A stretch of DNA of 64,000 bases from Opitutia bacterium ISCC 52 (GTDB taxonomy: Bacteria > Verrucomicrobiota > Verrucomicrobiia > Opitutales > UBA2995): the NCBI GenBank assembly GCA_014529675.2, contig CP076040.1, forward strand, positions 2,499,894 through 2,563,893, in the 5' to 3' direction. Position 1 is the first letter of the stretch. Every line of letters begins with the position of its first letter. Below are positions 48,925 through 50,714 of the stretch, piece after piece. Made by a program: the position numbers and the translations under genes. A model generated the notes under the pieces. The model did not search any database, was not told the DNA's origin, and worked only from the letters and a program-made list of their open reading frames with translations.

Positions 48925-50277
48925 TTAAAATCCTCCACTGATTCCTTTTTCAATCAGTGGGAGCATAACACCTTTCCTGAACAGAGTTACTTGCCCGGTG
49001 CTCGAAGAAATCACAATCGATACGCACTGGGTCGCTAAAGAGATGGCAAATGCGGCAGCGTGTCTGGCTCCCAACCCTGAAGGCAACTTGTGCTCGTAGT
49101 CGGGAACGTGAATGAGTGAGCCTGCTGAAAGAATGACCCCGTCTCCTCGAATAATAAATGCGCCATCTATACTGGAGAATTCCTTAATCGTCTCATCCAT
49201 GAATGGATTAAGAATATTTCGGTCTTCGTGCTTGTAGCCGTAGAAAGGATTAAGAACCAATGGCTTGGTCAATGCCTCTACCTTTTTCGAATCACCGATC
49301 ACAAAAAGGGCGCCTATTTTTTGTCCTTCACGCCCTTCTACAGTCAGTTCTGTCGCAATAGCGATAATACGCTCCAGAACCTCGGGCTTAACATTAGCCG
49401 GTAAAATACTCCCCTTATTGGATAATACCGATCGAAACTCCTGCTGGATATCGATAATGACAACACTATCAAATTGATTGCTATCGGCGATTCCTCCAAC
49501 ACAGCAAATTTTATCGGTAAACTTGAACAACCCCTTTCCCAACCCGATCAGAGCCGCGCTCCGCAATTGGGAAAAGCGTTTACTGGAAAAAGCTTGAATA
49601 TGAAGCGTCGGTGTATTCTGAGCCAATACCGGCGAATCAATCATACGGGACGATATCACGACAGCAGGAATTTCCCCAAAGTCGGGGATCACATCTACTC
49701 CTCCTATCATCGTATCCGCAAAGAACAGGATGGCCGAAGCATCCACCCCTTTCGCCAAGCGTTGAGCTTCCCTGAAGAGTAAACGATTGGTTTTGCTCTG
49801 CTGGGCACTCAAGCGCGTCTGAACACCTGAAAAACCAGAAAGTAATTCAGCTTTGTATTCATCATATGAAGGAGCCTGCAACAGGCGCTCCACAAATCCT
49901 TCATCGCGAAATACGCGAGCCACAGACGCTAAAGCTTGCAGGTAATTGCGCTCCTTCTCACTTGCCAATAAAACGACGACTAAATGAACCTTTTTGGTTT
50001 CCGAGGATCCGTCATAATCAAATCCCTCCTTCGAACGCCCAACCGCGAAAACAAATCGGGACCGCATATTAACCCTGATGTGGGGAAGAATAACCCCTCG
50101 CCCCAGATAAGTGGTCATCGCATTCTCACGGTTGATCAGGTCTTTAAATAAGCTCCGCTTGTTAAGCTTCTGATTTTTGAAACATATAGAGTCCAATAGT
50201 TCCACCAATACGGATTTCAGATCCTGGCCTTCTAGGTCCAGGATTCGATCTTCAGAGATGTAACGGTCCAGCTGCAT
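48925..50277 (-). CDS. PTS EIIA(fructose-type) - diadenylate cyclase (DAC/DisA_N) fusion
   Basis: 450 residues. N-terminal part (about 1-145) is a fructose/mannitol-type EIIA domain with the phospho-histidine His66 in YLGRGVILPHIRVN. The middle (about 165-340) has two strand/helix stretches that look like an alpha/beta regulatory module. The C-terminal ~110 residues match the DAC domain that makes c-di-AMP from two ATP: DGAFIIRG (DGA at 371-373), GLGARHAAA (RH at 405-406), and ISSSTGQVTLFRKG. The classical motif is RHR; here it is RHA, and the downstream acidic residues of the usual SEET motif are absent, so activity is uncertain. The combination suggests that PTS phosphorylation tunes c-di-AMP synthesis (inference). 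Confidence 0.82.
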   Translation of the reverse strand: MQLDRYISEDRILDLEGQDLKSVLVELLDSICFKNQKLNKRSLFKDLINRENAMTTYLGRGVILPHIRVNMRSRFVFAVGRSKEGFDYDGSSETKKVHLVVVLLASEKERNYLQALASVARVFRDEGFVERLLQAPSYDEYKAELLSGFSGVQTRLSAQQSKTNRLLFREAQRLAKGVDASAILFFADTMIGGVDVIPDFGEIPAVVISSRMIDSPVLAQNTPTLHIQAFSSKRFSQLRSAALIGLGKGLFKFTDKICCVGGIADSNQFDSVVIIDIQQEFRSVLSNKGSILPANVKPEVLERIIAIATELTVEGREGQKIGALFVIGDSKKVEALTKPLVLNPFYGYKHEDRNILNPFMDETIKEFSSIDGAFIIRGDGVILSAGSLIHVPDYEHKLPSGLGARHAAAFAISLATQCVSIVISSSTGQVTLFRKGVMLPLIEKGISGGF

Positions 50278-50336: not shown

Positions 50337-50714
50337 CTACTTTTCCCACTCTAAGGCACCTTTTTTCATTTCATAAAAGAGGCCTACAATGAGCACGGCG
50401 AGGAAGAACAATATGGGTAGTAAAATAGGGATACTCTGGGAAATAAAATCGCGATAGATCACAGCCCAAGGGATGAGAAATACGATCTCAATATCGAAGA
50501 GGATAAAAAGCATGGCGGTGACATAGAACTTCACCGAAAATCGCGTATGAGTGATTCCTTCTGAAGGAACCCCACACTCATAAGGTGTGCCTTTAAATCG
50601 CGAATGCTTACGGATCCGCTGACCAAACAAATGACTAGCCGCAATCACGCCAATGGCGATTGCCAAAGCAAGCGTTACTTGAACAAGTAAGGGAAAGAAA
50701 GATTCAAGGGTCAT
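50337..50714 (-). CDS. nuoA: NADH-quinone oxidoreductase subunit A
   Basis: 125 residues with three hydrophobic helices. The conserved loop FKGTPYECGVPSEG contains the reactive Cys of the quinone-chamber loop. The LFILFDIEIVFLIPWAVI helix with Asp/Glu is diagnostic of NuoA/ND3. It is part of complex I in the inner membrane. No other nuo gene is next to it, unlike the usual nuoA-N order, so the operon is split. It begins 81 bases from the convergent-side DUF362-like gene and is oriented toward the EIIA-DAC gene. Confidence 0.95.
   Translation of the reverse strand: MTLESFFPLLVQVTLALAIAIGVIAASHLFGQRIRKHSRFKGTPYECGVPSEGITHTRFSVKFYVTAMLFILFDIEIVFLIPWAVIYRDFISQSIPILLPILFFLAVLIVGLFYEMKKGALEWEK

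Follow-up and report, generated by a model that had tools for sequence, protein, structure and literature searches.

Within a 64,000-nt stretch of Opitutia bacterium ISCC 52 DNA (the window), we find a gene for a 450-amino-acid protein that joins a PTS EIIA domain, a DacZ_P domain folded like the allosteric C-terminal (PK_C) domain of pyruvate kinase and a diadenylate cyclase (DAC) domain in one chain. The reading that we favour, with somewhat better than even confidence, is that of a predicted soluble DacZ-type cyclase, of the class DacD, whose activity is set by the two fused domains, EIIA phosphorylation being among the inputs. In this proposal, two ATP would be converted to c-di-AMP in a head-to-head DAC dimer, PEP-derived phosphate would travel through EI and HPr and end on His66 in EIIA, and the PEP/pyruvate state of the cell would thereby be written onto the cyclase. 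Phosphorylation of His66 may shift the packing of the EIIA and PK_C domains on DAC and so alter the dimer, in a direction that the proposal does not set. The domains, the conserved core, the co-occurrence with EI, HPr and PgpH and the absence of the other PTS outputs searched for are computed results, unlike cyclase activity, His66 phosphorylation and gating, which we infer. c-di-AMP is generally associated with potassium and osmotic balance, and to our knowledge the control of its synthases is largely open.

The gene runs without interruption for 450 codons on the minus strand (positions 48925–50277, ATG to TAA). The original prediction described an EIIA–DAC fusion, and the fusion is real, given the intact frame, the two Pfam domains and the colinear relatives; what this two-domain picture overlooked is the DacZ_P domain between them, recognized both by Pfam and by its PK_C-like fold. 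All three domains, likewise encoded on the minus strand, score above their curated Pfam cut-offs: PTS_EIIA_2 (residues 12–141, positions 49855–50244; E = 1.2e-24), DacZ_P (PF21755; residues 163–281, positions 49435–49791; E = 2.4e-11) and DAC (residues 312–437, positions 48967–49344; E = 6.6e-23). The same three are present in 30/30 aligned family members, and the public genome collection yielded 79 further tabulated loci, nearly all of them full-length, colinear open reading frames at 45–81% identity; the fusion is therefore not a chance or mis-joined frame. A search of the plasmid collection returned partial matches only. DAC was found in 93 of 103 Opitutales genomes, nearly always once per genome and in an open reading frame of about 450 amino acids, and the EIIA–DacZ_P–DAC architecture spans this order as well as one genus (3 genomes) elsewhere in Verrucomicrobiota, a distribution on which we rejected the idea of a rare accident.

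Upstream by 59 bases and on the same strand lies nuoA (Oxidored_q4; positions 50337–50714, minus strand), a probable operon partner in view of the gene order here and at most loci of the order. This gene, for NADH-quinone oxidoreductase chain 3, stands alone at this locus, with no other nuo genes adjoining. The downstream gene product is a bL33-like ribosomal protein, named from its sequence. There is no PTS gene among the neighbours of the fusion gene, and scans for sigma-70 promoters and terminators gave no more matches than in shuffles.

By sequence and by model, the first domain is a PtsN/fructose-type PTS EIIA, for which we found the fold of the family, a score of 87 bits against the curated cut-off of 27 (Pfam PTS_EIIA_2) and the phospho-acceptor histidine. 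In an AlphaFold2 (AF2) model built from 30 native homologues (mean pLDDT 79), residues 1–153 match PtsN (1a6j) with a Z score of 20.7 over 147 residues at 2.0 Å, and the sequence of the domain matches the FruA EIIA subfamily. The phospho-histidine already claimed for this domain corresponds to His66 (LGRGVILPHIRV; positions 50080–50082, minus strand), a predicted phospho-acceptor that aligns with the active-site ‘PH’ of PtsN proteins. It is present in 79 of the 80 tabulated loci (the window protein plus 79) and, in a wider alignment, in 69 of the 84 proteins that have a residue at that column.

The C-terminal domain of pyruvate kinase is a binding place for allosteric effectors. When residues 158–300 of the fusion were folded alone (AF2, pLDDT 80), the best 50 PDB matches were exclusively pyruvate kinases, with E values down to 4e-6. 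This PK_C-like domain stands directly before DAC, as in DacZ-type cyclases, and a PK_C-type fold had earlier been proposed for DacZ/CdaZ from homology modelling (PMC6741144). On the basis of the model, the fusion joins two modules of the PEP/pyruvate node, namely an acceptor for PEP-derived phosphate and an effector domain of the pyruvate kinase type. An additional metabolite is probably bound by the PK_C-like domain.

The other PTS genes for which the original prediction had suggested looking are present in the genome, each with its histidine intact: one EI (C1, at about 2964 kb; 583 amino acids, SRTSH motif, PEP-utiliser N domain at the start) and one HPr (C1, at about 4683 kb; GIHARPA and KSIMG). 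The sole PTS_EIIA_2 domain of this genome is the fused one, and profile searches found neither PTS_EIIC (PF02378) nor EIIA-man; the EIIC search used PF02378 alone, and the EIIA search covered PTS_EIIA_2 and EIIA-man. Of the 103 Opitutales genomes, 80 carry EI, 86 carry HPr, 8 carry PTS_EIIC and 1 carries EIIA-man. A set of 40 combines EI and HPr with no PTS_EIIC match and with the fused domain as sole PTS_EIIA_2, and in 38 of these 40 the fusion is the sole DAC as well, the genome of the window being one of the two exceptions owing to its CdaA. With EI, HPr, a sole PTS_EIIA_2 and no PF02378 permease, the suggestion that the protein could tie PTS phosphorylation to c-di-AMP has become the best-supported reading. 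More tentatively, and with confidence that stops a little short of even, we propose that the Opitutales PTS may be a dedicated second-messenger circuit, with one EIIA that sits, together with a pyruvate-kinase-type domain, on the only c-di-AMP synthase; c-di-AMP would then be set jointly by sugar phosphates and the PEP/pyruvate node. The few PTS_EIIC-bearing relatives usually encode an EI+HPr+EIIA protein of 825–903 amino acids (multiphosphoryl-transfer type; G045, G337, G339, G131, G048, G039 and G010) besides separate EI and HPr.

His66 tends to be kept where EI is kept: it is retained in 62/70 EI-positive versus 7/19 EI-negative genomes (89 aligned members, p = 1.3e-5), an association that comprises few independent events, is nested in few clades and is confounded with genome reduction. 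Independent changes number four for EI and six for His66, and the phylogenetic pair test has four pairs, too few to reach significance; some EI absences may, in addition, be gaps in MAGs. Of the lineages without EI, family f80 (0.8–0.9 Mb genomes) and genome G319 have no EIIA left, and their open reading frames are 294–352 amino acids long with the DAC core intact. The residue at His66 is Tyr in 4/5 members of f82, Cys in f83 and Tyr in 1/3 members of f68, again with the DAC core intact throughout. Loss of His66 or of EIIA after loss of EI, with DAC kept, is as expected of a regulatory domain deprived of its input, although it is not proof.

An active but ungated DAC is unlikely in our judgement, yet it is an account to be taken seriously: the EIIA domain would act in the manner of PtsN, as an output with other protein partners (regulators of K+ transport, for instance), and the fusion would couple expression and location only. 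The EIIA fold is indeed nearest to PtsN, unphosphorylated PtsN1 binds KdpD in Sinorhizobium (PMC9239096) and K+ is also under c-di-AMP control. However, domain order and spacing are constant across the order, suggesting interdomain contact, and EIIA goes where EI goes while DAC stays, although this last pattern is compatible with either view.

It is less probable still, and in our view improbable, that the EIIA domain is vestigial or purely structural. Two EI-positive families lack His66, with Tyr (f65) or with Ser and Cys (f4) in its place, some of these members having a separate EIIA, and EIIA is less conserved than DAC (identity to consensus of 0.57 versus 0.76). A vestigial domain is nevertheless hard to square with the retention of His66 in most EI-positive genomes, or with the 40 genomes in which the fused domain is the sole PTS_EIIA_2 for an EI and HPr that otherwise have no known partner. 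In f65 (L158, L179, L194, L208 and L220), Tyr replaces the phospho-histidine in 5/5 members despite the presence of EI and HPr, which could reflect either loss or a fixed switch state.

Under the favoured reading of a gated cyclase, the DAC domain would have to be active, and the fusion is very probably a c-di-AMP synthase, as predicted from its sequence and genomic company. Residues 290–445 of the AF2 model match the DAC domains of DisA and CdaA with Z scores of 14–16, and among NCBIfam models the DAC half scores 110 bits with DacZ, 34 with CdaA and 28 with DisA; the 110 bits fall short of the 430 set as cut-off for the DacZ equivalog, that model being named for the haloarchaeal form. The motifs are as originally read: D371-G372-A373 (positions 49159–49167, minus strand) and R405-H406 are kept, A407 makes the second motif RHA (positions 49057–49065, minus strand) instead of the RHR of CdaA and DisA, and the downstream stretch has no acidic residues. 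E366, D371, G372, R405, H406 and S424 are identical in 95/95 aligned relatives, including those with reduced genomes of 0.8–1 Mb. In the same alignment, position 407 is mostly Ala and otherwise Ser, Val, Met, Leu, Thr or Gly, and position 404 is T, S or A. Mycobacterium DisA lost its activity when all of RHR was changed to AAA (PMC3328451), a mutation that took away the R and H still present in the fusion. Because position 407 is variable, Haladaptatus DacZ carries RHH rather than RHR and RHA or RHS occurs in CdaA-type enzymes of the window’s genus, this part of the DAC family can probably do without the third Arg.

The turnover of the nucleotide points in the same direction. The 7TM-7TMR_HD domain, which is typical of the c-di-AMP phosphodiesterase PgpH, was found in 90 of the 103 Opitutales genomes, and DAC and PgpH occur together in 87. 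PgpH is absent from 7/10 DAC-less versus 6/93 DAC-bearing genomes (Fisher p = 9e-6, uncorrected for kinship). Retention of the phosphodiesterase beside a single DAC argues for that DAC making c-di-AMP. In very small genomes (0.8–0.9 Mb; L174, L191, L205, L217 and L192), EI and EIIA are gone and DacZ_P–DAC and a PgpH-type phosphodiesterase are retained, so that c-di-AMP seems hard to lose in Opitutales. The genome of the window also encodes a CdaA-type DAC (CdaA_N plus DAC), so the fusion is not the sole cyclase there; among the Opitutales genomes sampled, this second DAC is confined to the window’s own genus. The CdaA-type cyclase (L001:46-2331; C1, at about 4474 kb) has a TM domain and a DAC domain with GTRHAAA, and adjoins a DHH/DHHA1 phosphoesterase-like gene. 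A further kind of DAC, of 300–322 amino acids with DGG and RHL or RHV and without EIIA, is found in relatives of the window’s genus and in G172 (L150, L231, L243 and L245).

These data leave little room for the nucleotide sensor that the original prediction raised as an alternative, here spelled out as a catalytically dead DAC, marked by RHA in place of RHR and the missing acidic residues, that would steer EIIA phosphotransfer. We consider this very improbable, and the equation of RHA with a dead cyclase was rejected, because the other core residues stay the same even in reduced genomes, small residues are normal at position 407, which varies across the clade, and RHA or RHS is shared by CdaA-type enzymes within the genus. 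The DAC domain, moreover, outlasts EIIA, and most genomes have it as their only DAC, together with a PgpH phosphodiesterase. Finally, we give almost no credence to an EIIA of ordinary sugar transport with an incidental DAC domain, since the match to the FruA EIIA subfamily is set against a PTS_EIIC (PF02378) that is present in only 8/103 relatives and missing in the window’s own genome, on which ground a sugar-uptake component was rejected.

The class DacD is listed among DACs by Braun et al. 2019, with class names from Corrigan and Grundling 2013, and its representatives come from Lacunisphaera limnophila, a Puniceicoccaceae bacterium, Coraliomargarita, a Verrucomicrobia and an Opitutae bacterium (PMC6741144). 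Matched by the taxonomy of these listed proteins (Opitutae), a group where it is close to universal, the fusion almost certainly belongs to DacD, and its architecture is in that case not unrecorded. The original remark that no characterised example is known agrees with the open literature on EIIA with DAC, in which we found nothing on the function or characterisation of DacD, but it missed that the class had already been named. We likewise found no description in the open literature of an EIIA or PK_C domain in DacD, of a sole-output PTS or of the co-loss pattern.

If the proposed gating is correct, the fusion would be the first known cyclic-dinucleotide synthase under direct gating by PTS phosphorylation. 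It would connect c-di-AMP with central carbon metabolism, such that sugar metabolism may set c-di-AMP directly, and it suggests what the PTS may be for in the many Verrucomicrobiota that have one without a permease. As the suspected controller lies in the same chain and the chemistry, phosphorylation from PEP, is known, a few purified components would suffice as a test system.

Comparison with known systems places the fusion between two lines of signalling proteins. Archaeal DacZ/CdaZ (DacY), its best NCBIfam match, similarly has a PK_C-fold domain followed by DAC, and experiments showed the DacZ of H. volcanii to be active as a synthase with Mn2+ (PMC6741144); the archaeal proteins differ in being without EIIA, and Haladaptatus DacZ retains the acidic residues after the motif, of which the fusion has none. 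CdaA (DacA) and DisA share the DAC fold, DGA and RH, but carry other N- or C-terminal domains and RHR, and CdaA is membrane-bound. On the side of the PTS, the closest parallels are PTS-Ntr (EI-Ntr, NPr and EIIA-Ntr) and the permease-less PTS of Brucella and Caulobacter, which likewise have EI, HPr and EIIA with no permease and serve regulation only. Control of a second messenger by such a system has a precedent in Caulobacter, in which EIIANtr~P acts on SpoT and thereby controls (p)ppGpp (PMC4848567). In PTS-Ntr, however, EIIA is free and binds its target, whereas here it is covalently fused to a predicted second-messenger synthase.
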